Shown here: positions 24,306-48,434 of the stretch, in pieces
Layout of the letters: every line of letters begins with the position of its first letter
How positions within the stretch are numbered: the stretch's first letter is position 1
DNA from: Peptococcaceae bacterium BICA1-7
GTDB lineage: Bacteria > Bacillota > Desulfotomaculia > Desulfotomaculales > Desulfocucumaceae
Assembly (NCBI GenBank): GCA_000802095.1
Contig: JUEB01000016.1
Location: forward strand, 1-64,000
Reading direction: 5' to 3'
Length of the DNA stretch: 64,000 nt
Notes under the pieces: model-generated
Databases searched by the model: none
Told to the model about the DNA's origin: nothing
Seen by the model: only the letters and a program-made list of their open reading frames with translations
Translations under genes and position numbers: made by a program

Positions 24306-27300
24306 TTATTTTATGAACTTCCCTAGTCCTCCGGGAGAGTCCCCGACGGGTATCGTGGCAATGACATTATTGGTGTTGGTGTCTATAACGGAAACATTGT
24401 CGCTTCCTGAATTGATGACGTATAAAAGTTCCCCGTTCTCTGTAAATGACAGGCCCTCGGGGGCTATTCCGTCTACGAGAGGTATATATCCCTCATTTGT
24501 ATTCATAGCGGTATCAATTACGCGCACCGCGTTTTCATTGGAGAGGGTGATGTATACCCTTGTTCCGTCCGGGCTGACGGCAATTCCGTTAGGGCCGTCC
24601 CCTACCGGATAATTGCCTAGGAAGGTGTTGCTGGTTATGTCTATTACCGACATATTGTCGCTGCCGTTGTTAGCCACGTATGCCTTTGGCATTACCGGGG
24701 AAACTGCTATGCCGTAAGGGCTTGTGCCCACATTGACGGTAGTGATTACCGAGTTGTATACGGCATCTATTACCGATACATTATTCATATCGGGGCTTGT
24801 CACGAAAAGGCGTGAGCCGTCCGGGCTGACATCAATTCCGTAGGGGCCGCTGACATAAGGGTCGGTGGTGACGATAATAGGTGAGAAAGAATAGCCGTCC
24901 AGATCGGCTATTGTATTGCTGTTGTAAAGTGCCACATAGATTTTTGATCCGTCCGGATTATAGGCTATACCTTTGGGGTTGCCCATAAGGCTTGGATATG
25001 TTGTAGAAAGGTCGCCGGTATTGATAACCGTCAGGTTACCGCCCAGCAGGTTTCCTACAGCCACCTCATTGGCACTGGGGTTGACAGCCGCTCCCCAGGG
25101 GCCGCTGCCCGCACTAACGGTATCAATTACTGTATTGCTGCCGGTGTTGATAATGGAGACAGTGTTGGCGTTGTAATTGGGGATAAAGGCCAGTTGCGCG
25201 CTTTCCATGTCGTTTATGGGAATAATGGCGGCCACTGCGCTTTTGTATAAAGTGTTATAGCCTTCATTCCTGGAAAAAACGCCAAACTTTAGAGCTCCTT
25301 CAGGGATAACTGTATCATAGGGTATTGTCAGGGTATATGTGGGGTATCCCGCCTCAACCACGGCAATTTCCGGCCCTATGATGTAATTGTCCCCATTGAG
25401 GTAATGAACCACATAATGGGTAAGGGCGATGGACTCATTCTGAGCCGATTCCCATGTCAGGGCGCCCTCTATTTTACCTGTCCTGCTGTCGGTGTCGCTA
25501 AAGGCCGGGTTTTGGGCCAGTGCGGTGACAAATATCTCGGTAGTCCGGCTTTCATTAATGGCCCCTTTCTCATCGATGGCGTCTTGATAAGTTATCACAA
25601 TGGTATCGCCAGTTAAAGCCCCTATTATATCGCTGTCGTCAGCGGTGCTCCCACCAATTTTAAAAGATCCGGTAAATGTATCGGAGTCTATATCCTCCTC
25701 TGCCAGCTGAACGGTTATTCCGGCAGGGTCGGTGTCTGATTTGACATTGGCGGATAGATACTCAATTTGTGCACTGTTATGGTTTGAGTCAGGGTCTATC
25801 ACCATCATTTCCACTTTTTGCTCTTCCGGATAATGGACATGCAGCGGTTCGCCAAAGGTCCAGACGCTTCCGGTTGAGCCGGGAATTGTGGTCAGGCTGA
25901 AGCTGTAAGGAGCCGCCAGGGAATTTCCCGCACTATCGCGGATGGCCCCCTGGGGGATGCTGACTGTGTATGTTTGTCCGTAATTCAGAGGATTGACTGG
26001 ATCTATGATAATTACTTGGCCGTCTATCCGACTGTTAGCTTCCACGGCAATGCTATCGGGGCCTTTAACGGAAATGCCTGTGAAGCTGCCGCCCGGCTGA
26101 ATGACTTCACTGAACAGAACCGTTATATGGTTCCCGTAAAGCCTGTTGCGGGTTTCCACCACAAGGTGTCCAAAGGCCTCGGCCACGTGCTTTACAGGAA
26201 CGAAGGGGATACCGTTCTGTACAAACGGGGATACATCCATGATCTTTTCTTCGGGATCGCTGTCACGGTAGATATACATTGTTGAGTCGTTGATGAAAAT
26301 TGCAACAGATGTATTATCCCGGTAAAAAGTAATTCTCTGGTTGACTTCGTCCCAAATGACTCCAAGATCAAGTTTCCTGGCCAGGAATTTGGGCGTTACA
26401 AAGAACCGGTCATTAAGCATTACCGGAGCCATATCCATGACTTCGGGCTCGCCGTCAAAATAAGCTGTTGTCTCTCCTAGAATAAGCTCTCCTTTTTTGT
26501 CTATTTTAAGCTTCACGCCTTCTGCCGGAGATGATTTTACCACTGAAGGCGCAGTGGAATCAGAAGAGCTGCTACTGGAAGAGTGATTGGACGGACTGGG
26601 CGGACTGGGCACGCCGGACGTGGCCTGGGACAGGGCCTGAGTAATGGTGCTGACAATATCTTGATCCTGCGGCTGATCTACCTGCTGCTGCTCTTGCGGC
26701 ACCGGATTCTCTACCGGAACCTGGGGCGGCAGGATAGCCGGGGCCGGGGCCGGAGGCAGGTTGTTTTGTATTTCGGCTGCCCGTTCCTGGACCCACTGTT
26801 GAGCCTGCTGCCAGGACTGCTGTTCCTGCAGGCTCATGGGGGCGGGGGGAGCGGGGGGGGCTGCGGCGGACGTTACTGAAGAAGATTGCCCCGGAGAAAT
26901 CGAGACAGTGACTCCTCCGGAGGTTACCGTCGCATCACCTGTAATAATTGATGTAGTTGAATGTTGGTCAGTAACCAGATTGGACCAGAAGGTTCCTCTT
27001 ATGCCGGCTATGCCCCAGGGCATGTCCACAACCACCCGCTCACGGGCCTGATAGGGCTGATCCCACCAGGGAACGGCCTCCTGGCTGTCCGGGCCGGCCA
27101 CGGCAATATCCCGATAGGCCGGAAGGAAATGGGAGGCGGAGGCCAGCATGGGCCCCGGCAAAGTATTTTTACTTACTGATGGCTGCGCTTTTTTCTCATT
27201 TCTGGAGGCCAGGGTGCCGAATACTTTACCCCTGGCTAATTCTACCTTCAGCCTGTCAATCATTACTCCCCGGGTGCCGTTACTGCGCATGTAGTTTATG

Positions 27301-28154
27301 CCCCGGCTTTCGGTAATGGTAAGCTCTGTTTCGGGCTCAATAAGAAAGCCGCTGCCGTCATCAAAGATTAATTCGGCCTGGCTGTCAGCATAAGTAATTA
27401 TTTTGGTACCTGAACCAACTTTAATGCTTTCGGAGACTCTGGTGACAGTCCCCTGATCTGAGATGATTTCTACCGTACCCTTTTTGACAATAATATTTCC
27501 GGTTAAATCAGCGCTCCGCAGTGAAGGTCCAATGGTGTACGCTTTGCTGATGGCGCGGGCCAGGTCGCCCCTCCGGAAAGCTGCCTCAGGGTTAAAGAGC
27601 CTGTCTCCGGGCAGGCTGGCCAGCCCGGACTCTACAGCGGTGGCCACCTGTCTGTAGGCCCAGTGCCCGGCGGCAACATCGGCTATGGCCACATTTTTTT
27701 CGGTAAGGCTGCCTCCGGACAGGCCTAGAATTATGGTCACGGCCTCAGCCCTTGTAACTGTGCTGTCGGGACCGAAGGTTCCATCCGGATAACCTTTTAA
27801 AAGCCCGGCTCCGGCAGCGGCCTCAATAGCCCCGTAGGCCCAGTGTCCGGCAGGAACATCGCTAAAGGTTTGAGACTGGCCGGATGCAGGTGAGAGTCCC
27901 TTGACTTTTAGTGCCACCACTGCCATCTGGGCCCTGGTGACACTCTCACCGGGGCGGAAAGTATTATCGGGGTAGCCCTTTATAATTTCCCTGCTGGTTA
28001 AGTAACGGACGTGCGGGAATAAGGGGCTGTCAGTATTTATGTCGGAGAATTGCGAAGCATTTTCGATTGCCGCAAAATCAGCCGGGGCGGAAAGCGCTGC
28101 TGTGCCGGGAATCAACAGTATAAGAAGGGAACATAGTAATACTAACAACTTCAA
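24306..28154 (-). CDS. SLH-FecR-stalk-beta-propeller envelope protein
   Basis: A 1282-residue exported mosaic. A signal peptide (1-22) is followed by three SLH repeats (about 36-84, 94-147 and 157-208; for example LTSREIIKGYPDNTFRPGES) that attach to secondary wall polymer. Then comes a FecR-like domain (about 215-430), a Pro/Gln/Ser linker (440-545) and a copper-amine-oxidase-like stalk (about 565-680). After this are an Ig-like segment (about 690-775) and a region with repeated Asp-rich patterns. The C-terminal 280 residues hold seven YVTN-type units (SPDGSRLFVTSPDMNNVSVI), which should close as a seven-bladed propeller. It is monocistronic and probably an adhesin or S-layer-associated protein. 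The combination of FecR and YVTN on an SLH anchor is unusual. Confidence 0.9.
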   Translation of the reverse strand: MKLLVLLCSLLILLIPGTAALSAPADFAAIENASQFSDINTDSPLFPHVRYLTSREIIKGYPDNTFRPGESVTRAQMAVVALKVKGLSPASGQSQTFSDVPAGHWAYGAIEAAAGAGLLKGYPDGTFGPDSTVTRAEAVTIILGLSGGSLTEKNVAIADVAAGHWAYRQVATAVESGLASLPGDRLFNPEAAFRRGDLARAISKAYTIGPSLRSADLTGNIIVKKGTVEIISDQGTVTRVSESIKVGSGTKIITYADSQAELIFDDGSGFLIEPETELTITESRGINYMRSNGTRGVMIDRLKVELARGKVFGTLASRNEKKAQPSVSKNTLPGPMLASASHFLPAYRDIAVAGPDSQEAVPWWDQPYQARERVVVDMPWGIAGIRGTFWSNLVTDQHSTTSIITGDATVTSGGVTVSISPGQSSSVTSAAAPPAPPAPMSLQEQQSWQQAQQWVQERAAEIQNNLPPAPAPAILPPQVPVENPVPQEQQQVDQPQDQDIVSTITQALSQATSGVPSPPSPSNHSSSSSSSDSTAPSVVKSSPAEGVKLKIDKKGELILGETTAYFDGEPEVMDMAPVMLNDRFFVTPKFLARKLDLGVIWDEVNQRITFYRDNTSVAIFINDSTMYIYRDSDPEEKIMDVSPFVQNGIPFVPVKHVAEAFGHLVVETRNRLYGNHITVLFSEVIQPGGSFTGISVKGPDSIAVEANSRIDGQVIIIDPVNPLNYGQTYTVSIPQGAIRDSAGNSLAAPYSFSLTTIPGSTGSVWTFGEPLHVHYPEEQKVEMMVIDPDSNHNSAQIEYLSANVKSDTDPAGITVQLAEEDIDSDTFTGSFKIGGSTADDSDIIGALTGDTIVITYQDAIDEKGAINESRTTEIFVTALAQNPAFSDTDSRTGKIEGALTWESAQNESIALTHYVVHYLNGDNYIIGPEIAVVEAGYPTYTLTIPYDTVIPEGALKFGVFSRNEGYNTLYKSAVAAIIPINDMESAQLAFIPNYNANTVSIINTGSNTVIDTVSAGSGPWGAAVNPSANEVAVGNLLGGNLTVINTGDLSTTYPSLMGNPKGIAYNPDGSKIYVALYNSNTIADLDGYSFSPIIVTTDPYVSGPYGIDVSPDGSRLFVTSPDMNNVSVIDAVYNSVITTVNVGTSPYGIAVSPVMPKAYVANNGSDNMSVIDITSNTFLGNYPVGDGPNGIAVSPDGTRVYITLSNENAVRVIDTAMNTNEGYIPLVDGIAPEGLSFTENGELLYVINSGSDNVSVIDTNTNNVIATIPVGDSPGGLGKFIK

Positions 28155-35553: not shown

Positions 35554-38196
35554 TTAGCTTATTGATCCGCACCTCAGTGAGTTTTCGGTCCGGGACCGGG
35601 CCTCGGCCACCTTGCGCCACTCCTCCTCGCTCAGGGGGAGGTCGAAGCTGCGCAGCTGGGCCAGGTCAAAACCGTGTCTGGCTGCAAGCTGCCTCAAATA
35701 GATCATGTTGTCCAGGGATAGGTAGGCCCCCAGGCTCATGTCGGTATAGTGGTGCTCCAGGGCCAGCATCATGGTTTCGGCCATGCAGGCATACGCCAGG
35801 CCTGGCTCAAAGCCGAAATCCCAGCCCAGGGACGGGCGGCCAGGAACAGCTACCACTCCACCGTCGATAACCAGAACATCAGGCCTTATCTGCCTCAGGG
35901 AGGGGCGGACATTTGAGGGCTTGGATATGTCGCATATGATGGCCCCCGGGGCCACCCACATGGGATTGATCAGGTCATCCACACTGTTGGTGGCCGTTAT
36001 TACCACCTGGGCCTCAGGTAGAGCCTGGGCCAGCTCTGTGGTGATCAGAAGATAGCCCTCTTTTTCAAGTTCCTCCTCAACAGGCAGCCAGTCCTCGGTG
36101 GTGGCGCCGGTGGAAGGGAGGTCCATCTGCAGCAGCCGGGCTCCCAGGCTGGAGGGTGAGGGGGTCCACCCCCCGGAGGCCTGTTTGGCCAGGTGCAGGC
36201 AGATATCCGCACCCACCCTCCTGAGCCTGCGGGCGCTGGCCTGGGGATGGCGGGAATTGCCCACCAGTATAATGCGCTGCATCTCTTCGGACAGCAGTAT
36301 GGCCAGTGTTCTCCCGATGGAGCCGGTGGCTCCGATAATGGCTGCAGAACACCGTCCCAGGTCCAGGGAGAATCTACTGGCCGCCAGCTTGACGGCCTCC
36401 ACCCCGGATACCACGGTGTAGCTGTTTCCGGTGGTGAGAGGAAGAAACTTTCCCTGCAGAAGTGTGCCGCTGCGTGAAACCACCGATGTGTAGGCCCCCA
36501 GGCCCACCAGGCGGGCTCCCCGGCGGAGGGCAAGATCCAGTGCCTTTTCAAGCTCACCCAGAATAATTTTGCTATCGATCTCCATCATTTCCCTGGCGGT
36601 GTGCGGCAGTGTGATAAATTCCCCGTACGCGCGGTGGCCGGTTTTGGATACCACAGTGGTTCTTCCTATTACAAAGGGCTCCAGTATAAGGCTGCCTATA
36701 TCGGCCAGCCTCTGCAGCTTATCCTCCGGCAGAGCCTTCAGGCTGGGATCAAACTGGTGAAAATTATATAGGTCCAGCGGGTGGATAAGGAAGGCGAAGC
36801 GCCCCTCTTTGGGGTCCTCTGAGGGCTGGTAGCGCTCCCAGGGGTGCGCCTCAACAGAGGTTCTGCCGTAATCCGCCCCCTGATCCAGCTCCAGCATGGG
36901 CCTCATTATTTCTATGGTGTTTCCTGCATCCAGTATGGCTAAAACATTTTCCAGAGACTTGAGGGCCATGCTGCACTCCTCCCAGGTTACGGTAAGGGAA
37001 GGCTCTATGCGGATGACTCTGTTTCCGTTAAGGGTGGGTGCCACTCTTAGCCCTTCCGCGTTAAGAAGGTAGCTTGAAATAAGCGGGGTCAGGTTGTCCT
37101 GCTCGGAAAGCACGCTCAAAAAGCAGCCTGGGAAGTCGGGCCTGCTCATTTCAAACTCCATGCCCAGCATATAGCCCCGCCCCCGGACCCCCTTCAGCAC
37201 CCTGGGGAACCGTTTCTGCAGCGCCTCCAGGGACTCCCGCAGGCGGCGCCCGTTTTCCCTTACCTGCCGGATCAGGGCCTGGCTGTCTCTGGTCAGCAGG
37301 TCCATAACTTTAATGCCCACACGGCAGCCAGGGGTATTGGCGGCAAAGGTGGAGGAGTGCCTTTCTCCGAACTCCCTGGTATAGGCAGCGGAGGTGGAAA
37401 GGCAGGCCCCTATGGGGTAAAGCCCTCCTCCCAGCGCCTTGGCCAGGAGAAGCAGGTCGGGTGTTACGTTTTCCTCCTCGCAGGCAAAAAGACTGCCAGT
37501 CCGGCCCAATCCTGTCTGTATCTCATCAAGTATAAAAAGCACCCCGTGCTGCCGGCAAAGACCGGCGGCTGCAGCCAGGTATCCGGGCTGAGGCACCACT
37601 ATGCCGCCCTCGCCCTGTATTGGCTCCAGTATTAAGGCCGCATAATCGCCGCCGCTGTTATTAAGCTCTTCCCGGAGGGCCTCCAGGTCATTATATGGAA
37701 TGGCCTTAAAGCCTTCTACCGGGGCCCCGAAGGGAGTCTGGTAATGCTCTCTGCCGGTAGCTGAAAGAGCGCCCAGTGTCTTGCCGTGGAAGCTGTTTTC
37801 GGTGCTCAGTATGCCGTTTCTTCCGGTGGCCGACCGGGCCATTTTAATGGCGGCCTCCACTGCCTCTGCGCCGCTGTTGGTGAAGGTCACATACTCCAGT
37901 CCTGCCGGGGCCGCCTCAACAAGAAGGCGGGCCAGCTCACCGGCGGCCTCCAGGGCCGAGGGCTGGATGAAGCTGGGCTCCCCGGAAAGGCGCACCTGAT
38001 CCAGGGCCTCCCATATTTCCGGGGGGTTGTAGCCAAAGGGAAGAGCCCCGTAGGAGGCGATAAAGTCCAGATATCGGCCGCCCCCGGAGTCGTACAGGTA
38101 ATGGCCCTCCCCCCGGGTAAATACCTTGTCCATGCGCATCTGTTCCAGAAGTTCCCCCAGGTGGGGGTTGACATACCGTGTATATTTATGCATCAT
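35554..38196 (-). CDS. Class III aminotransferase fused to an acyl-ACP-reductase-like domain
   Basis: An 880-residue two-domain protein. Residues 1-430 are a fold-type I PLP aminotransferase of the ornithine/acetylornithine type: NSGAEAVEAAIKMARSATGR, the PLP aspartate region ILDEIQTGLGRTGSLFACEE and the lysine segment TPDLLLLAKALGGGLYPIGA. Residues about 450-870 resemble cyanobacterial acyl-ACP reductase: GLGAYTSVVSRSGTLLQGK, TTGNSYTVVSGVEAV and the NAD(P) loop AAIIGATGSIGRTLAILL, then DISKPSNVRPSL. The pairing suggests reduction of an acyl thioester to an aldehyde followed by amination to an amine. This is inference. It lies 82 bases downstream of an HTH regulator on the same strand. Confidence 0.85.
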   Translation of the reverse strand: MMHKYTRYVNPHLGELLEQMRMDKVFTRGEGHYLYDSGGGRYLDFIASYGALPFGYNPPEIWEALDQVRLSGEPSFIQPSALEAAGELARLLVEAAPAGLEYVTFTNSGAEAVEAAIKMARSATGRNGILSTENSFHGKTLGALSATGREHYQTPFGAPVEGFKAIPYNDLEALREELNNSGGDYAALILEPIQGEGGIVVPQPGYLAAAAGLCRQHGVLFILDEIQTGLGRTGSLFACEEENVTPDLLLLAKALGGGLYPIGACLSTSAAYTREFGERHSSTFAANTPGCRVGIKVMDLLTRDSQALIRQVRENGRRLRESLEALQKRFPRVLKGVRGRGYMLGMEFEMSRPDFPGCFLSVLSEQDNLTPLISSYLLNAEGLRVAPTLNGNRVIRIEPSLTVTWEECSMALKSLENVLAILDAGNTIEIMRPMLELDQGADYGRTSVEAHPWERYQPSEDPKEGRFAFLIHPLDLYNFHQFDPSLKALPEDKLQRLADIGSLILEPFVIGRTTVVSKTGHRAYGEFITLPHTAREMMEIDSKIILGELEKALDLALRRGARLVGLGAYTSVVSRSGTLLQGKFLPLTTGNSYTVVSGVEAVKLAASRFSLDLGRCSAAIIGATGSIGRTLAILLSEEMQRIILVGNSRHPQASARRLRRVGADICLHLAKQASGGWTPSPSSLGARLLQMDLPSTGATTEDWLPVEEELEKEGYLLITTELAQALPEAQVVITATNSVDDLINPMWVAPGAIICDISKPSNVRPSLRQIRPDVLVIDGGVVAVPGRPSLGWDFGFEPGLAYACMAETMMLALEHHYTDMSLGAYLSLDNMIYLRQLAARHGFDLAQLRSFDLPLSEEEWRKVAEARSRTENSLRCGSIS

Positions 38197-38278
38197 AAAA
38201 GACCTCTTTTTTTATTATGCCTGCTTGTTTGCGGCAGGTGAATGTTTGGTGAGTACAGCTGTACATAGCAGATAGGAG

Positions 38279-38809
38279 TCAGCCGGCGTTTTTAAGCTGT
38301 ACCACCAGCTGCCTGAGCTGGTCCGGGTTGACCCAGCGGTCTTCTTTGAGTGGGGATATACCTATCTCCCAGCTGATCACCTTGGGGCCCAGTATGGCCT
38401 CCACCAGCTTTATGCGCATGTCCGATCCGATGAAAATAACTGTGTCATAGCTCTTGACCTGGGAAATAAGTGACATGAAGTGGTTTATCAGATCAGCTCC
38501 ATTTTTTTCCTCTACAAAGCTCCAGCGCTCTTTTTCATTCATGAGCAATATAAAATCAACCCCGCCGGCCCTGGCCACATCGGTAAGTTCTCTGGCGTTG
38601 GCCACGGGAAACCCAATTAGTGCCACCTGGGGCCCTTTCCTTATTTCCCCCAGGCTTTCCAGGCGTGATACCAGGGTTCTGTCCACTCCAAGGCGGTCAG
38701 CCACCTCCTGCTGAGACATCCCTTCCTGCCTCAGCCTTAGTATCTCGTCCACCGTGCGGTGAATGCGCTCGGCGTTAAGCACCTTGTCACCTATGCGGAT
38801 GAAATTCAT
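38279..38809 (-). CDS. HTH regulator upstream of the aminotransferase fusion
   Basis: A 176-residue protein. The N-terminal third has a helix-turn-helix (GMSQQEVADRLGVDRTLVSR) and the remainder an alpha/beta domain with a Rossmann-like pattern (QVALIGFPVANARELTDVAR and DTVIFIGSDMRIKLVEAILG). The C-terminal domain may sense a ligand. It is not a standard family that I recognise. The ATG at 38809 with AAGGAG 7 bases upstream is preferred; a longer frame to 38842 has no ribosome site. It precedes the fusion gene on the same strand and probably controls it. Confidence 0.75.
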   Translation of the reverse strand: MNFIRIGDKVLNAERIHRTVDEILRLRQEGMSQQEVADRLGVDRTLVSRLESLGEIRKGPQVALIGFPVANARELTDVARAGGVDFILLMNEKERWSFVEEKNGADLINHFMSLISQVKSYDTVIFIGSDMRIKLVEAILGPKVISWEIGISPLKEDRWVNPDQLRQLVVQLKNAG

Positions 38810-39051
38810 AACAATCTCCTTTGTGCACAAATTTGTGCTCAATAATATTCTACCATAACCGGCTGCAAATACAAGGACCGGAAGGTAGTAGAGACAGAGG
38901 CGGCGGAAAAGCTTTTTTATTGATAAGTATAGTATTGACAGAAGTGTCCGAAAACATTTTTTCCCTTTAGCGGGGCAGGCAATCCAAACACGGAAGGTTT
39001 GGGGAGTTGAAAATAGAAATAGGTACTATAGTGATAGGGCGGTGAGGTTAA

Positions 39052-41461: not shown

Positions 41462-42247
41462 ATGGATTACCAACAGGTGGCTGTTGAGCGACTGGGAAGG
41501 GTAAGGGTGGTGTACTTAAATCGCCCGGAAAAAAGAAACGCCCTCAGCCGGCAAATGTCTACGGAGCTTATAGCCGCCCTTGGGGAGGCCGACCGGGATA
41601 CCGGGGTAGGGGCGGTGGTGCTTACCGGAAAGGGGGAGTCCTTTTGTGCCGGGGGTGACCTGGCCGATTTTGCGGCTATGACCTCCAGGACCGCGCCAGT
41701 CATATACCGGGAGGGGGAAGAGTCCACTGAGCTATTCAAAATGGGGCTCAGGATGAAGAAGCCCCTTATCGCCGCGGTAAATGGCCAGGCCCTGGGGGGT
41801 GGCTGCGGGCTGGTGGCCATGTGCCACCTGGCGCTGGCCTCGGAAAAGGCCAAATTCGGCACACCTGAGGTCAGGGCGGGTATTTTCCCCTTTGTGATCC
41901 TGCCCCTGCTTATAAGGGCGGTGGGTCCCCGCAGGGCGCTGGAAATGGCCCTCACCGGGAGGAGCTTAAATGCCGGGGCAGCCAGGGAAATAGGGCTTGT
42001 AAACAATGTGGTGGCCCATGAGGAGCTATTGGGGGAGGCATTAAAGCTTGCCTCCGGGGTGGCCGGCAGGAGTCCACTGGTGCTGCGCCTGGGGCTGACG
42101 GCCTTTAACACTGCCATGGATATGGAGATTAATAAAGCCATGGACTTTCTAAATACCCTCAGGGTAATAGATCTTATGAGCGAGGACCTGAAAGAGGGGG
42201 CTATGGCCTTTATTCAAAAAAGAGAACCGGAGTGGAAGGGACAGTAA
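41462..42247 (+). CDS. Enoyl-CoA hydratase/isomerase family protein
   Basis: A 261-residue crotonase-fold protein. GESFCAGGDLADF forms the oxyanion hole and KFGTPEVRAGIFPF keeps one catalytic-type Glu. The other usual Glu position reads GGGCGLVAM (Gly for Glu), so chemistry may differ from a standard hydratase. In Atu/Liu-type pathways the corresponding enzyme acts on branched glutaconyl-CoA. It is the first gene of the cluster. AAGGAGGGAAAGG precedes the ATG. Confidence 0.93.
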   Translation: MDYQQVAVERLGRVRVVYLNRPEKRNALSRQMSTELIAALGEADRDTGVGAVVLTGKGESFCAGGDLADFAAMTSRTAPVIYREGEESTELFKMGLRMKKPLIAAVNGQALGGGCGLVAMCHLALASEKAKFGTPEVRAGIFPFVILPLLIRAVGPRRALEMALTGRSLNAGAAREIGLVNNVVAHEELLGEALKLASGVAGRSPLVLRLGLTAFNTAMDMEINKAMDFLNTLRVIDLMSEDLKEGAMAFIQKREPEWKGQ

Positions 42248-42306
42248 TAGTGGTCACGAGAGTTACAGATGTCCGACGTCCGACGACCGAAATGGGAGGG
42301 ATATAT

Positions 42307-43857
42307 GTGGATTTAAAGGAGCAGACTGCCCTGCTGAATCAGAAGAAGGAAAAGTACCGCCAGATGGGGGGACCGGAAAAGATAGCCCAGCAGCACTCCA
42401 TGAAAAAGCTTACCGCCCGGGAAAGGCTGGAACTGCTTTTTGACCAGGGGAGCTTTGTGGAGATGGGCCTATTGGGACACCACCACTCTGATCACCCGTC
42501 ACTTAAAAATAAAGAGACCCCTGCCGACGGTGTTATTACCGGGCACGGGAAGATAAACGGGCGACCTGCCTGCGCGGCTGCCTATGACTTTACCGTGATG
42601 GCCGGGTCTATGGGGGCCACGGGAGAGATTAAGGTAACCAGGATAAGGGAGTGGGCGCTTAAGCAGAGGATGCCCATGATATGGCTGATTGACTCGGCCG
42701 GCGCCCGTATACAGGAGGCTGTGGGGTCGTGGTTTGCCATTTCCGGTGAATTGTTCCACAACGAGGTGATTATGTCCGGGGTCATCCCCCTGGTGTGTGC
42801 CATGATGGGGCCCGGGGCAGCAGGGACCGCTTACATACCGGCGCTGTCCGACTTTGTGCCCATGGTCAGGGACCAGAGCTTCATGGCCCTGGGGGGGCCT
42901 CCCCTGGTAAAGGCCATGATCGGCGAGGATGTTGACGAAAACACACTGGGTGGCTCCAAGGTGCACTGCGAGGTGAGCGGTGTGGGAGACCTGGAGGTGG
43001 AGAGTGACGGGGAGTGCATAAGGGTGATCAGGGACTATCTCAGCTTCTTCCCCTCACACAACCAGGAAAGCCCCCCGGTGACACCTTCCGGGGACGACCC
43101 GGACCGCTATGTGCCTGAGCTTTTGGATATAGTGCCCGGAGACCAGAGGAAGCGCTACAACATGCTGCAGGTAATAGAAAAAATTGTGGACAGCGGCAAT
43201 ATATTTGAAATAAAGCCCAGGTGGGCAAAAAACCTGATTACCTGCCTGGCCAGGATGAACGGTAGGCCGGTGGGCATTGTGGCCAACCAGCCCATGACTC
43301 TGGGGGGAGTGCTGGACGTTAACGCGGCCGACAAGGCGGCCAGATTTATCAACCTGTGTGACGCCTTTAACATACCCCTTGTTTTCCTGGTGGATGTGCC
43401 GGGGTTTATGATTGGCTCGGCGGTGGAAAAACAGGGGATTATCAGGCATGGCGCCAAAATGCTCTACGCTGTTTCCGAGGCCACTGTCCCCAAAATCACC
43501 GTAGTGTTGAGAAAGGCATATGGCGCCGGCTATTATGTCATGTGCGGAAGGGCTTATGAGCCCGACCTTATCGTGGGCTGGCCCACTGCTGAAATAAGCG
43601 TTATGGGGCCGGAGGGCGCGGTGGGCATAATCTTCCGCAAGGAGTTGGCCGGCGCACCGGACCCCAAGGCCATGAAGGAGGTAATGGTAAACGAGCTGCG
43701 CAAGGTCATCAACCCGGAGATAGCCGCCTCCTATGCCTATATAGACGATATAATCGACCCCGGAGACACCCGCAGGGTGATTATCAGGGGCCTTGAGATG
43801 GCCTCCGGAAAGAGAATAGCCCGCCCGTGGAAAAAGCACGGTGTGGTTCCTGTTTAA
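42307..43857 (+). CDS. Acyl-CoA carboxylase, carboxyltransferase subunit
   Basis: A 516-residue biotin-dependent carboxyltransferase (AccD/PccB/MccB type) with two crotonase-like halves: SMKKLTARERLELLFDQGSF at the start, then WLIDSAGARIQEAVGSW and LVDVPGFMIGSAVEKQGI for acyl-CoA and biotin binding. The length and lack of a zinc finger match the propionyl/methylcrotonyl/geranyl class. Its partners are the BCCP (48786) and biotin carboxylase (49011). GTG 42307 is chosen (GGGAGGG 7 bases upstream); the frame to 42232 overlaps the hydratase gene. Confidence 0.92.
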   Translation: MDLKEQTALLNQKKEKYRQMGGPEKIAQQHSMKKLTARERLELLFDQGSFVEMGLLGHHHSDHPSLKNKETPADGVITGHGKINGRPACAAAYDFTVMAGSMGATGEIKVTRIREWALKQRMPMIWLIDSAGARIQEAVGSWFAISGELFHNEVIMSGVIPLVCAMMGPGAAGTAYIPALSDFVPMVRDQSFMALGGPPLVKAMIGEDVDENTLGGSKVHCEVSGVGDLEVESDGECIRVIRDYLSFFPSHNQESPPVTPSGDDPDRYVPELLDIVPGDQRKRYNMLQVIEKIVDSGNIFEIKPRWAKNLITCLARMNGRPVGIVANQPMTLGGVLDVNAADKAARFINLCDAFNIPLVFLVDVPGFMIGSAVEKQGIIRHGAKMLYAVSEATVPKITVVLRKAYGAGYYVMCGRAYEPDLIVGWPTAEISVMGPEGAVGIIFRKELAGAPDPKAMKEVMVNELRKVINPEIAASYAYIDDIIDPGDTRRVIIRGLEMASGKRIARPWKKHGVVPV

Positions 43858-43887
43858 ACAGATTTTTTCAGGAAAAGGAGGGTGGCT

Positions 43888-45033
43888 ATGAAATATTCCG
43901 CTTTTACAGAAGATCACCATGCGGCGCGCAGGGCCATAAGGAAGTTTGTGGATGCCGAGATAGCGCCGCACGTGGAGGAGTGGGAGAGACAGGAGTACTT
44001 TCCGGACTGGGTTTTCCCCCGCATGGGGGATCTAGGCTTCCTTTCGCTGAGATACCCCGAGGAATACGGCGGGGCCGGCGGTGACTATTTTATGGGGCTG
44101 GTGCTGGGTGAGGAAATGGCCCGCTGCGGGGCGGGGGGCCTGCCCATGGCGGTGGCGGTGCAGACTGATATGGCTACCCCGCCGATTATGCAGTTCGGCA
44201 CTGAGGAACAGAAAAAAAAGTACCTCATTCCCGCTCTCAGGGGCAGGAAGGTGGCCAGCCTTGGGATAACCGAGCCTAATGCCGGGTCCGATGTGGCCTC
44301 CATTGAAACAAGGGCTGTGCGGGATGGCGATCACTGGGTTATCAACGGCCGCAAGATATTTATCACCAACGGGCTAAGGGCCGACTTCATTACCCTGGTG
44401 GCAAAAACAGACCCCGGCCTGGGCTACAACGGGGTGTCCCTGTTCCTGGTGGATAGGGGAACTCCAGGCTTTACTGTGACCAGAAAGCTTAAAAAGCTGG
44501 GCATGAGGTCCTCGGACACGGCGGAACTTCTCTTCGAGGACTGCCGGGTACCGGGGGAGAACCTGCTGGGAGTGGAAAACCGGGGGTTTCACCAGATAAT
44601 GTGGGAGCTCCAGGGGGAAAGGCTGATTGGCGCTGCCGGCGCGGTGGCCGCAGCCCAGAAGACTTTTGAAGAGGCCCTTTTGTATGCCAGGGCCCGCATG
44701 CAGTTCGGCAAGCCCCTGGTCAGGTTTCAGGTTATAGCCCACAGGCTGGCCGGGATGGCTACTGAGCTGGAGGCTGCCAGGGCGCTGGTTTACTCCACCG
44801 CCAGGAAGTTTGCCGCCGGGGAGTACCCGGTGAAAGAGATTTCCATGGCCAAGCTGGTGGGAGGTCAGGTGAGCCACCGTATATCTGACGCCGCCCTGCA
44901 GATATACGGTGGATATGGCTACATGATGGAGTACGGTGTCCAGAGAGCCTGGAGGGACTCCCGGCTGAACCGGATAGGCGGAGGCACCGATGAGATAATG
45001 AAGGAAGTAATTGCCAAGACTTTAGGGATTTAA
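43888..45033 (+). CDS. Acyl-CoA dehydrogenase (isovaleryl/long-chain type)
   Basis: A 381-residue FAD enzyme that introduces an alpha,beta double bond into an acyl-CoA. SLGITEPNAGSDVASIETRA is the FAD site. The usual catalytic Glu of short/medium-chain enzymes is replaced (IGGGTDEIM), while LQGERLIGAAG supplies the Glu used by isovaleryl-CoA and long-chain dehydrogenases. A branched or terpenoid substrate is therefore likely. ATG 43888 follows GGAGGG. A sister enzyme is at 45180. Confidence 0.93.
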   Translation: MKYSAFTEDHHAARRAIRKFVDAEIAPHVEEWERQEYFPDWVFPRMGDLGFLSLRYPEEYGGAGGDYFMGLVLGEEMARCGAGGLPMAVAVQTDMATPPIMQFGTEEQKKKYLIPALRGRKVASLGITEPNAGSDVASIETRAVRDGDHWVINGRKIFITNGLRADFITLVAKTDPGLGYNGVSLFLVDRGTPGFTVTRKLKKLGMRSSDTAELLFEDCRVPGENLLGVENRGFHQIMWELQGERLIGAAGAVAAAQKTFEEALLYARARMQFGKPLVRFQVIAHRLAGMATELEAARALVYSTARKFAAGEYPVKEISMAKLVGGQVSHRISDAALQIYGGYGYMMEYGVQRAWRDSRLNRIGGGTDEIMKEVIAKTLGI

Positions 45034-45038
45034 TTCCC

Positions 45039-45152
45039 GGTCAGAATACAGAATTCAGAATACAGAATGACTTTGAAGACATTCCCATATGCCTACATTA
45101 GCCAGGCATAAAAAGCTTCTGAATTCTGACTCCTGACTCCTGTATTCCGACC
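45039..45152. repeat. Dispersed inverted repeat (CAGAATACAGAATTCAG type)
   Basis: The left arm is GGTCAGAATACAGAATTCAG and the right arm is CTGAATTCTGACTCC...TGTATTCCGACC (quoted in part). The same words occur at 62102-62140. It fills the gap between the two dehydrogenase genes, so it may fold in the operon message. Confidence 0.7.
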
Positions 45153-45179
45153 GAAAAGTATAGCCAAGGAGGTATAAAT

Positions 45180-46325
45180 ATGTCCCACTGGCTTTTCCAG
45201 GAGGAGCACGATATGCTGCGCAGGAGCGTGCGCAGCTGGGTAGCCAAGGAAATAACACCCCATGTGGAAGAATGGGAGGAGCAGGGAGAATTCCCCCGGG
45301 AGCTTTTTAAATGGGCTGGTGATCTGGGCTTTCTGGGTCTGACCTTCCCTGAGGAGTACGGGGGCAGCGGTGTGGACTACCTGGCCGGGGCGGTGTTTAT
45401 TGAGGAACTGGCCCGCTGCGGGTCAGGTGGCATTTCGGCCGGAATAGGGGCCAGTGTATGCATCGCCGCCCCCCAGATATACAGGTTTGGCAGCGGGGAG
45501 CTGAAAAAAAAGTTCCTTGCCCCCACCATTGCCGGAGAAAAAATAGGCTCCCTGGGGATCACCGAGCCCAACGCAGGATCTGACGTAGCCTCCATCAAGA
45601 CCACCGCCAGGGCAGACGGTGAGCACTACGTGGTAAATGGCAGCAAGACCTTTATAACCAACGGGGCCAGGGCCGACTATGTGGTGGCCGCGGTAAAAAC
45701 TGATCCAGGCTCTGGGCACAAAGGCATAAGTCTTCTGGTTATTGAAAAGGAAACTCCCGGCCTTTCCGTGGGCAGAAAGCTTGAAAAGGTCGGTTGGAAC
45801 ACTTCGGATACCGGAGAGCTGTATTTCGAGGACTGCCGGGTGCCCAGGACCAACCTGGTGGGGGAGGAGGGCTCTGGGTTCTATTATATAATGCAGAATT
45901 TTGTCTGGGAAAGACTGGTCATGGCCCTGGGAGGGGTGGTGGGAGCCCAGTTGGCCCTGGAGGAGGCTATCAAATATGCCCGGCAGAGAGTTCAGTTCGG
46001 CAAGCCCCTGACTAAATTCCAGGTTACCAGGCACAGGCTGGCCGACATGGCCGCCGGGATAGAGACTGCCCGGAGCCTGACACACCATGCCCTGTCACTT
46101 TTTGTGGCCGGGGAGGACGCCCTCACTGCGGTGGCCATGGCCAAAATATACGCCTGTGAGACCGCCAGCCTGGTTTGTGATTCGGCGCTGCAGATACACG
46201 GCGGGTACGGGTATATGATGGAATACCCGGTCCAGCGCCTTTGGCGGGACGCCAGGGTAGGCACTATTGGGGGAGGCACCACCGAGATAATGAAGGAGAT
46301 AATAGCCGAGAGAATGATCAGATAG
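45180..46325 (+). CDS. Acyl-CoA dehydrogenase (isovaleryl/long-chain type)
   Basis: A 381-residue FAD enzyme paralogous to 43888. SLGITEPNAGSDVASIKTTA is the FAD-binding signature and FVWERLVMALGG supplies the candidate catalytic Glu. The C-terminal position reads IGGGTTEIM as in long-chain/citronellyl-type enzymes. Two such enzymes in one cluster fit the two oxidations of a terpenoid route such as AtuD/AtuF. GGAGG precedes the ATG. Confidence 0.93.
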   Translation: MSHWLFQEEHDMLRRSVRSWVAKEITPHVEEWEEQGEFPRELFKWAGDLGFLGLTFPEEYGGSGVDYLAGAVFIEELARCGSGGISAGIGASVCIAAPQIYRFGSGELKKKFLAPTIAGEKIGSLGITEPNAGSDVASIKTTARADGEHYVVNGSKTFITNGARADYVVAAVKTDPGSGHKGISLLVIEKETPGLSVGRKLEKVGWNTSDTGELYFEDCRVPRTNLVGEEGSGFYYIMQNFVWERLVMALGGVVGAQLALEEAIKYARQRVQFGKPLTKFQVTRHRLADMAAGIETARSLTHHALSLFVAGEDALTAVAMAKIYACETASLVCDSALQIHGGYGYMMEYPVQRLWRDARVGTIGGGTTEIMKEIIAERMIR

Positions 46326-46346
46326 AAGGAAAGAGGAGGGCAAGGC

Positions 46347-46781
46347 ATGCTTGATAGTTATTTTGACGAAATAGAGATTGGACAAAAGTCGGTTTCCAGG
46401 GGAAGGACCATCACCGAAACCGACATAGTAAATTTTTCTGCCTTTAGTGGTGACTGGTATCCCCTGCACTCAGACAGGGAATATGCCGCAACAACTGTAT
46501 TTGGCCAGCGCATAGCCCACGGAATGCTAATCATGAGCGTGGCCACCGGGCTTATAGGTATGAAGCCCGGGGTGGTGGTGGCTTTTTACGGAATGGACAG
46601 CCTGCGCTTTACCGCCCCCACCTTTATCGGGGATACCGTCAGGGTTGAGGCCGAGCTGCTGGAAAAGAAGGATAAGGGAGCCTTTGGTGTAATCACGGCC
46701 AGGCAGGAGATCAAGAATCAGCGGGACGAGGTGGTGTGCACCGCCCTGTTAAAGGTTGCCCTAAATAAAAAGCCTTTGTAG
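46347..46781 (+). CDS. MaoC-like dehydratase
   Basis: A 144-residue hotdog-fold hydratase. TETDIVNFSAFSGDWYPLHS carries the Asp and His expected of the R-specific hydratase site (D..N..H pattern). VFGQRIAHGMLIMSVATGL continues the signature. It probably hydrates a trans-2-enoyl-CoA in the pathway. AGGAGG precedes the ATG. The downstream gap contains a repeat (46856-47037). Confidence 0.88.
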   Translation: MLDSYFDEIEIGQKSVSRGRTITETDIVNFSAFSGDWYPLHSDREYAATTVFGQRIAHGMLIMSVATGLIGMKPGVVVAFYGMDSLRFTAPTFIGDTVRVEAELLEKKDKGAFGVITARQEIKNQRDEVVCTALLKVALNKKPL

Positions 46782-46855
46782 ACGCCTATACCGTTTAAAA
46801 TTATGGCACACAGAGGAATGAAAATATTTTGCATGCTGTAAATGAGTGTCCTAAT

Positions 46856-47037
46856 AAACCACAGAGCACACAGAGCACACAGAGATTTTTAGCCCTGCCT
46901 GAATGTTTAATAATATTTTGACTAAATAGCGGGGGAAGGATTGGCATATACTGCTGGAATTGTAGAATCCGGCTTAAGACCTGATAGTAGTGCCTATTAG
47001 CTTTTCTCTGTGATCTCTGTGTCCTCTGTGGTTTTAA
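46856..47037. repeat. Inverted-repeat element (CACAGAG type)
   Basis: The left end, AACCACAGAGCACACAGAG (46857 onward), and the right end, CTCTGTGTCCTCTGTGGTTT (to 47035), are imperfectly complementary. The interior is AT-rich and shows no gene. It resembles the dispersed short palindromic repeats seen in clostridial genomes and separates maoC from atuA. Confidence 0.65.
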
Positions 47038-47072
47038 AAAACTGACATCCTATATTGGAAGGTGGTGTGCCC

Positions 47073-48434
47073 GTGAAAAGTGTGCGCATTGGGGCCGGTC
47101 AGGGCTTTTGGGGTGATTCGCCCTTTCCGGCCCTGCAGGTGGCGCAATCCGGAGATGTCAAATATCTCTGCTGTGACGCCCTGGCCGAGCTGACCCTGGC
47201 CATTCTGCAGAAGGCCAGGCAGAAAGATCCCGACAAGGGCTACGTGGAGGATTTGTTCTTCACCATGCTGCTGCAGCCCTGCTATCAAAAGAGCATCAAA
47301 ATACTGACCAACGCCGGTGGGATAAACCCGTCGGGGGCCGGGCGGGCAGTATACGGGCTGGCCCAAAAGATGGGCCTAAAAGGGCTCAAAATAGCCGTCA
47401 TCACCGGTGACGACCTGCTGCCCAGGCTGGGGGAGCTTAAGAAGGCCGGGGTGGATTTGTCAGACATGGAGTGCGGTGGTGATATTTCGTCCATTGAGGA
47501 CAGGATATTATTCGCCAATGCTTACCTGGGGGCGCAGCCAATGGTGGAAGCCCTAAAAGCCGGGGCCGATGTGGTAATTACCGGCCGTACCTCTGACCCG
47601 GCCCAGTTCCTGGCCCCAATGGTGTATGAGCTGGGCTGGGGCTGGGAGGACTGGGACCGGCTGTCCGCCGGCATACTGCTGGGACACCTGATGGAGTGCT
47701 CGGCCCAGAGCACCGGGGGCAATTTTGGCGGTGACTGGTGGAACATACCGGACATGGAGAGGATAGGCTATCCGGTGGCCGAGGTGTGGGAAAACGGGGA
47801 TGCGGTGCTTACCAAGCCTGAGGGGACAGGCGGCTGGGTGAAATTAAATACCGTTAAGGAGCAGATGCTCTACGAGGTACACGACCCGGCCGGGTATATA
47901 ACTCCTGATGTTGTGGCGGACTTTACCTCCCCCACTCTTGAGGAAGACGGCCCCAACAGGGTTAGAATCACAGGCATGAAGGGCCGGCAGAGGCCGGAAA
48001 GGCTTAAGGTATCCATCGGCTACAGCGACGGCTGGCTGGGGGAGGCATTGATCAGGTATTCCTGGCCCCAGGCCATGAAGAAGGCCCGCAAGGCAGAGGA
48101 AATTATAAGGAAACAGTTCGCCTCCCTGGGGCTGACCTTTGATGAGATGATTACAGAATACATAGGCTATAATTCTCTCTCCGGCCCCCTGGCCTGGGGG
48201 GATGGAGACGATCTTAACGAAGTGGGGCTGAGGATTGCCGTGCGCACCCGCAATAAGGCGGATGCCGCCAGGATGCCCCGCCTTCTCCCGCCCCTGGCGC
48301 TTAACGGCCCTCCAACGGCCAGCGGTGCGGGCGGAATGCCCAGGCCCAGGGAGCTGATAGGTCTCTGGTCGGCCCTGGTGCCCAGGGAGGAAGTGGAGAA
48401 GCAGGTCAGGCTGGATATTCTGGAGGTGGAGTAA
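47073..48434 (+). CDS. AtuA-like protein, N-terminal part (DUF1446)
   Basis: A 453-residue protein of the acyclic terpene utilisation AtuA family: SVRIGAGQGFWGDSPFPALQ at the start and ADVVITGRTSDPAQFLAPMV are typical. In Pseudomonas the family is needed for citronellol/geraniol use, but the reaction is unknown. Here the N-terminal module and the C-terminal AtuA-related module are encoded as two adjacent genes (48436 next). GTG 47073 is chosen with GGAAGGTGGTG upstream; a TTG at 47055 is also possible. Confidence 0.88.
   Translation: MKSVRIGAGQGFWGDSPFPALQVAQSGDVKYLCCDALAELTLAILQKARQKDPDKGYVEDLFFTMLLQPCYQKSIKILTNAGGINPSGAGRAVYGLAQKMGLKGLKIAVITGDDLLPRLGELKKAGVDLSDMECGGDISSIEDRILFANAYLGAQPMVEALKAGADVVITGRTSDPAQFLAPMVYELGWGWEDWDRLSAGILLGHLMECSAQSTGGNFGGDWWNIPDMERIGYPVAEVWENGDAVLTKPEGTGGWVKLNTVKEQMLYEVHDPAGYITPDVVADFTSPTLEEDGPNRVRITGMKGRQRPERLKVSIGYSDGWLGEALIRYSWPQAMKKARKAEEIIRKQFASLGLTFDEMITEYIGYNSLSGPLAWGDGDDLNEVGLRIAVRTRNKADAARMPRLLPPLALNGPPTASGAGGMPRPRELIGLWSALVPREEVEKQVRLDILEVE

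Follow-up and report, generated by a model that had tools for sequence, protein, structure and literature searches.

Single enzymes that join an aminotransferase (TA) to a thioester reductase (TR) have been described in several bacterial pathways. TamH of the tambjamine YP1 pathway in Pseudoalteromonas tunicata converts C12-ACP to dodecylamine with NADH and L-glutamate, and its TR resembles acyl-ACP reductase (AAR) (PMC9594044). The C-terminal domain of this protein (PtTamH) was once annotated as an amino acid dehydrogenase and was later redefined (PMC9594044). In koreenceine-producing Pseudomonas, KecF is a fusion of a TA with a COG5322 domain (PMC6498172). PigE acts in prodigiosin biosynthesis, where the thioester is reduced first and transamination follows; its domains stand in the reverse order (PMC8341465).

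The locus described here lies in a 64,000-nucleotide stretch of contig JUEB01000016.1 from Peptococcaceae bacterium BICA1-7, referred to below as the window. It encodes a TA-TR fusion with an HTH regulator directly upstream (Table 1). The sequence-only reading of this locus knew of no described pathway with such an enzyme, a statement overturned by TamH (PMC9594044), PigE (PMC8341465) and KecF (PMC6498172). The chemistry and the type of fusion are already described; what is new is the biology, in which a fusion with its regulator and operator has replaced two genes found throughout the order.

An aminotransferase and an AAR-type reductase in one protein

The open reading frame of the fusion is intact, and full-length relatives with 65-92% identity occur in 18 other genomes of the window's order, together with one fragment. 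Its N-terminal half is a complete class III PLP aminotransferase, as first read from the sequence, with PigE (4ppm) and putrescine aminotransferase (4uox) as the nearest solved structures. The C-terminal half had been likened to AAR on three motifs (among them GLGAYTSVVS and TTGNSYTVV), which are present at residues 565, 588 and 622, and structure prediction bore out this likeness. When the TR model was searched against the PDB with Foldseek, the first seven matches were all AAR (E 7e-20 and down), with the carmabin terminal aldehyde domain ranking right after them. Shikimate, malic and formate dehydrogenases appeared only at E 1e-5 or worse, so the comparison with unrelated dehydrogenases fell in favour of an AAR-type domain. 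A phmmer search with the C-terminal 430 residues retrieved PigE (4ppm, E 1e-27) and AAR (6jzq, E 4e-13), and Pfam returned only Shikimate_DH for this half. Cys804 occupies the same column as Cys294 of SeAAR and the cysteine of PigE, the nucleotide loop GATGSIG is intact, and the acyl-transfer cysteine is conserved throughout the aligned TRs except in the relics described below. With an AAR-type TR that retains its cysteine and nucleotide loop, conversion of an acyl thioester to an amine by one enzyme is still the best reading, as originally suggested.

Table 1. Features of the fusion locus, with positions in the window
Feature	Position	Strand	Basis or remark
Fusion gene, 880 aa, N-terminal class III aminotransferase (TA) and C-terminal AAR-type thioester reductase (TR)	35554..38196	-	ORF, Pfam, phmmer, Foldseek
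TA domain, residues 24-419	36940..38127	-	Aminotran_3, E 9e-89
PLP lysine Lys253, in LLLAKALGGG	37438..37440	-	alignment/motif
TR domain, residues 456-880	35557..36831	-	AlphaFold model pLDDT 90.8; top PDB match AAR 6jzy
Helical insert, about 45-50 residues (about residues 664-716)	36049..36207	-	comparison of fusions, stand-alone TRs and PigE
Catalytic cysteine Cys804, in YACMAET	35785..35787	-	aligned with SeAAR Cys294 and PigE
HTH + alpha/beta regulator, 176 aa from ATG	38279..38809	-	82 bp upstream of fusion, same strand
Putative palindromic operator TGAGCACAAATTTGTGCACA	38822..38841	.	conserved palindrome upstream of regulator start; abuts -10-like hexamer
Promoter-like site TTTGCA-16-TATTAT, just upstream of operator	38842..38869	-	consensus match only

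By its published description, PtTamH shares with the window fusion the order TA then TR, a class III TA and an AAR-type TR with the cysteine, but its gene belongs to a pigment cluster that includes an adenylation-ACP enzyme of its own. KecF also has the same domain order, and KecF-like Pseudomonas fusions (L162, L198, L220) carry the helical insert too and belong to the clade of the window fusion in both domain trees. However, KecF belongs to a type II PKS cluster and its TA is about 50% identical; no HTH regulator of the window's family was found in the KecF-like Pseudomonas loci. The helical insert is present in nearly all TA-TR fusions, KecF-like ones included, and is missing from stand-alone TRs and from PigE. 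PigE (PDB 4ppm) has the same two activities, fold and cysteine but runs TR then TA and forms a separate clade; the window fusion, with its TA-TR order, scores 534.7 bits against the PigE equivalog NF053554, below the 850-bit cut-off. The TR half shares the fold, NAD(P) loop and catalytic cysteine with cyanobacterial AAR (6jzy, TIGR04058), which carries no aminotransferase and is partnered there by aldehyde deformylating oxygenase. Against the AAR equivalog TIGR04058 the window fusion matches in two pieces (35.6 and 32.9 bits), far below the cut-off of 449.7. In the TR and TA trees, which are quick trees with SH-aLRT support only, a few long branches and TamH itself left out, the window fusion groups with Bacillota fusions and KecF-like Pseudomonas proteins (support 100 and 99), apart from PigE and from the stand-alone genes. 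By sequence and architecture it is a TamH/KecF-type fusion, with an N-terminal TA (Lys253), a C-terminal TR with GxxGxxG and Cys804, and the KecF-like grouping. Distant TA-TR fusions outside pigment clusters were also seen on alphaproteobacterial plasmids (L264, L265, L266), for example near exosortase/VPLPA-CTERM and polysaccharide genes.

Elsewhere in the window, an acyl-CoA cluster at 41462-48434 encodes an enoyl-CoA hydratase, a carboxylase-like protein of 541 aa and two acyl-CoA dehydrogenases. An acyclic terpene utilisation protein, AtuA, comes next (47055-48434), and TetR and AraC regulators are encoded upstream. A 1282-aa surface protein (24306-28154) combines SLH domains, a copper amine oxidase N-domain, and Ig-like and beta-propeller parts.

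Split and fused genes across the order and the phylum

A search for the fusion in other spore formers had been proposed, and many Bacillota families were found to carry a TA-TR fusion. The window's order was sampled with 113 genomes from 55 genera, comprising 20 fusion carriers and 93 non-carriers. In this order a separate TR (about 365 aa) lies between dus and greA-lysS and a separate TA (about 475 aa) lies divergent from ylxM-ffh, the neighbour names being read from their sequences. The canonical separate TR is absent from 19 of the 20 carriers (exception G003) and present in 87 of the 93 non-carriers (Fisher about 2e-15), and the separate TA is absent from 17 carriers (exceptions G019, G056, G090) and present in 89 non-carriers (Fisher about 1e-13); both tests treat genomes as unrelated. 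The non-carriers that lack a separate TR or TA are mostly incomplete genomes. In the window's lineage, the fusion has replaced two separate, near-universal single-domain genes.

Horizontal spread is seen in G070 and G072, carriers in a genus whose remaining members retain the split genes. Their fusion nests in the tree among fusions of the window's family. Taken together, these two observations indicate that the cassette most likely came in sideways and that the native genes were lost. This placement lends independent weight to the replacement, beyond the Fisher tests. In a phylum-wide sample of 398 genomes, TR was found in 242 and the fusion in about 55 by hand count from tables; by the same hand count, the fusion and a strongly matching separate TR occur together in a single genome, G221, which is 7% contaminated. 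Other Bacillota fusion carriers (families f29, f78 and f28) seemingly have a second, weakly matching reductase, possibly a parallel decay.

Outside the window, the same genome still has a TR gene at dus-greA-lysS (G000:C12:3044-4102; L086:3044-4102). Its frame is open, and the cysteine, TTGNSYT and the GATGSIG loop are all lost. Similarly altered TR genes are present in G001, G002, G005 and G007, and the cysteine is missing in all five relics. G003 and G006 carry a canonical TR with every motif kept, and in the TR tree the relics derive from it on long branches. Two pairs of relics gave raised dN/dS values (about 0.39 and 0.50); the fusions in those genome pairs gave 0.10 and 0.17, and the canonical pair G003-G006 gave 0.11. 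From its sequence, the old TR gene appears to have decayed in the window's lineage; since the relics are open frames, another role or a repurposed protein is possible. Relics similar to that of the window's genome were noted at L260-L263.

The regulator and its palindromic operator

The gene directly upstream of the fusion had been read as an HTH protein with an alpha/beta domain, and the 176-aa product fits this description. A Foldseek search against the PDB returned nothing significant for the regulator fold, partner domain included. The regulator gene is essentially single-copy. It stands upstream of the separate TR in non-carriers and upstream of the fusion in carriers, its linkage to TR or fusion reaches other Bacillota, and in two genomes (G088, G089) it is divergent from the separate TA. 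The conserved linkage and a shared operator support the view that the regulator belongs with the enzyme. Apparent in-frame TAG codons in some regulators were considered as recoding; the matches appear to overrun the gene end and no recoding is claimed.

In regulator-bearing relatives, a palindrome, TGTRCACANNNNTGTGYACA, is conserved upstream of the regulator start codon. The copy in the window, which the sequence-only reading did not include, is the sole perfect one in the 4.75-Mb genome, all remaining sites having two mismatches. An operator matrix was built from regulator-upstream sites alone, with the 99.9% point of shuffled sequence as threshold. Of 40 genomes with the regulator, 16 had a site before the unlinked TA, and of 20 genomes that lack the regulator none did (Fisher p 5e-4); the 16 sites lie mainly in families f16 and f7 and are therefore not all independent. 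By binding the palindrome at the -10 box, the HTH protein would most likely act as a repressor of the operon that contains its own gene and the enzyme gene. Given the TA-upstream sites elsewhere and the sole perfect site at the fusion operon, we read this as a two-gene regulon (separate TR and TA) that collapsed into one operon in the window's lineage. A quinate-dehydrogenase-like gene was rejected as a regulon member, with an operator upstream in only 1 of 20 plus G013; a two-mismatch site near this gene in the window's genome is inside the next gene and was counted as chance.

Proposed pathway, alternatives and product

The explanation that we hold with good confidence is a bifunctional enzyme converting an acyl thioester to an amine under its own HTH repressor, in place of split genes. 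The fold, the catalytic residues and the precedent of TamH, with the same architecture, underlie the amine-making reading. In the TR domain, Cys804 would accept the acyl group of a carrier that is probably acyl-ACP, and bound NAD(P)H would reduce the thioester to an aldehyde. The TA domain would receive the aldehyde and convert it to a primary amine with Lys253-PLP and an amino donor (probably glutamate). The HTH protein would bind the palindrome abutting the -10 box and shut down the regulator-enzyme operon. Most genomes of the order would use a separate TR and a separate TA, unlinked and each of one domain, for these reactions, with this operator in control in many of them. In the window's lineage a single cassette of regulator and fusion has taken their place, and the old TR has decayed. 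Counted against this explanation are an operator before the separate TA in less than half of the regulator-bearing genomes tested, a regulator fold with no significant match in the PDB, a gene neighbourhood that points to neither substrate nor end product, and a searched literature in which no assayed enzyme of this Bacillota clade and no alkylamine lipid in these Bacillota was found.

The closest characterised enzymes (TamH, PigE, KecF) release a chain for a secondary metabolite, and the fusion could likewise tailor a small antibiotic-like molecule such as tambjamine, prodigiosin or koreenceine, supplying its amine by release of a polyketide or fatty chain. KecF-like Pseudomonas fusions share its clade, and ACP, PKS and AMP-binding genes adjoin PigE loci. 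The window fusion, however, has rplU/rpmA, a symporter and acyl-CoA genes as neighbours and no PKS, ACP or adenylation gene next to it. Unlike a secondary-metabolite cluster, the module occurs almost throughout the order as scattered genes that resemble housekeeping genes; this role is considered unlikely. Running the chemistry backwards, from amine through aldehyde to acyl thioester, would allow the use of long-chain amines or polyamines. The TA half does resemble putrescine aminotransferase and the window holds the acyl-CoA oxidation cluster, but TamH and AAR work in the reductive direction, the conserved operon partners elsewhere are lipid-binding proteins rather than uptake or oxidation genes, and the module is in nearly all genomes of the order, which makes a catabolic role quite improbable. 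Least credible is a small conventional semialdehyde or amino acid substrate, with the AAR-like half as an amino acid dehydrogenase. The former label of the PtTamH domain and the lone Shikimate_DH match in Pfam speak for it; the Foldseek ranking of AAR and the carmabin domain far above ordinary dehydrogenases, and an acyl-transfer cysteine conserved in all but the relics, speak against it. A plasmalogen or free-aldehyde role was set aside as the main reading, since the aminotransferase is fused or co-regulated.

For the favoured acyl-thioester-to-amine enzyme, the replacement of two near-universal genes by a fused one suggests a core, probably lipid-making pathway that has so far gone undescribed in these bacteria. 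Glyceroyl-alkylamine phosphoglycolipids occur in Thermus, Meiothermus and Deinococcus (PMC3398001, PMC3035268, PMC9636437); no other class of core lipids that contain a long-chain amine is well known. For T. thermophilus, the enzymes behind the third (alkylamine) chain have yet to be identified (PMC9636437). These Deinococcota lipids would require exactly the chemistry from acyl thioester to amine. Among 14 control genomes, the TIGR04058 profile matched only S. elongatus, Thermus composti and Deinobacterium chartae, the other 11 giving no match; an AAR-type TR thus occurs in the phylum with alkylamine lipids (T. composti, D. chartae). No Deinococcota TR locus was among the loci from a GC-rich motif scan, which returned other phyla, or from a plasmid scan.

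In several phyla the TR and TA genes lie close together. Among the loci read, a Polyketide_cyc/lipid-transport protein stands between TA and TR in one (L212), and an orphan quinate-dehydrogenase-like protein follows TR in three (L180, L204, L219). Of 60 relatives, 54 have a member of this orphan family, which there often adjoins an SCP2 lipid-binding protein. Family members (about 310 aa, no Pfam match; e.g., L219:253-1218 and L248:6833-7792) are also often near an APC-type permease. The 'quinate 5-dehydrogenase' of PMC9425974 could be TR or this adjacent family and was not used as evidence. On this circumstantial basis, a long-chain alkylamine for a membrane lipid is a plausible, if tentative, product. 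A wider and more speculative proposal is that TR and TA, split or fused, may be the missing alkylamine-forming enzymes of bacterial three-chain phosphoglycolipids, in an ancient pathway common to Bacillota, Chloroflexota, Armatimonadota and Deinococcota. In Bacillota a new family of HTH repressors would control this pathway, and in the window's lineage displacement would have condensed it to a single gene.

The amine-making fusions found with a characterised function tailor a small number of pigments and alkaloids. Here, an order of anaerobic bacteria would use the same chemistry in a regulated module that is nearly universal and resembles housekeeping genes. More than half of the phylum sample has TR, and together these findings point to an amine-bearing cell component that has yet to be described. 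Mutual replacement of the split and fused versions links two genes without an assigned role to a common pathway. Should an alkylamine lipid prove to be the product, these genes would be candidates for the amine-forming enzymes, reported as not identified, of a Deinococcota lipid that has been known since 1985.
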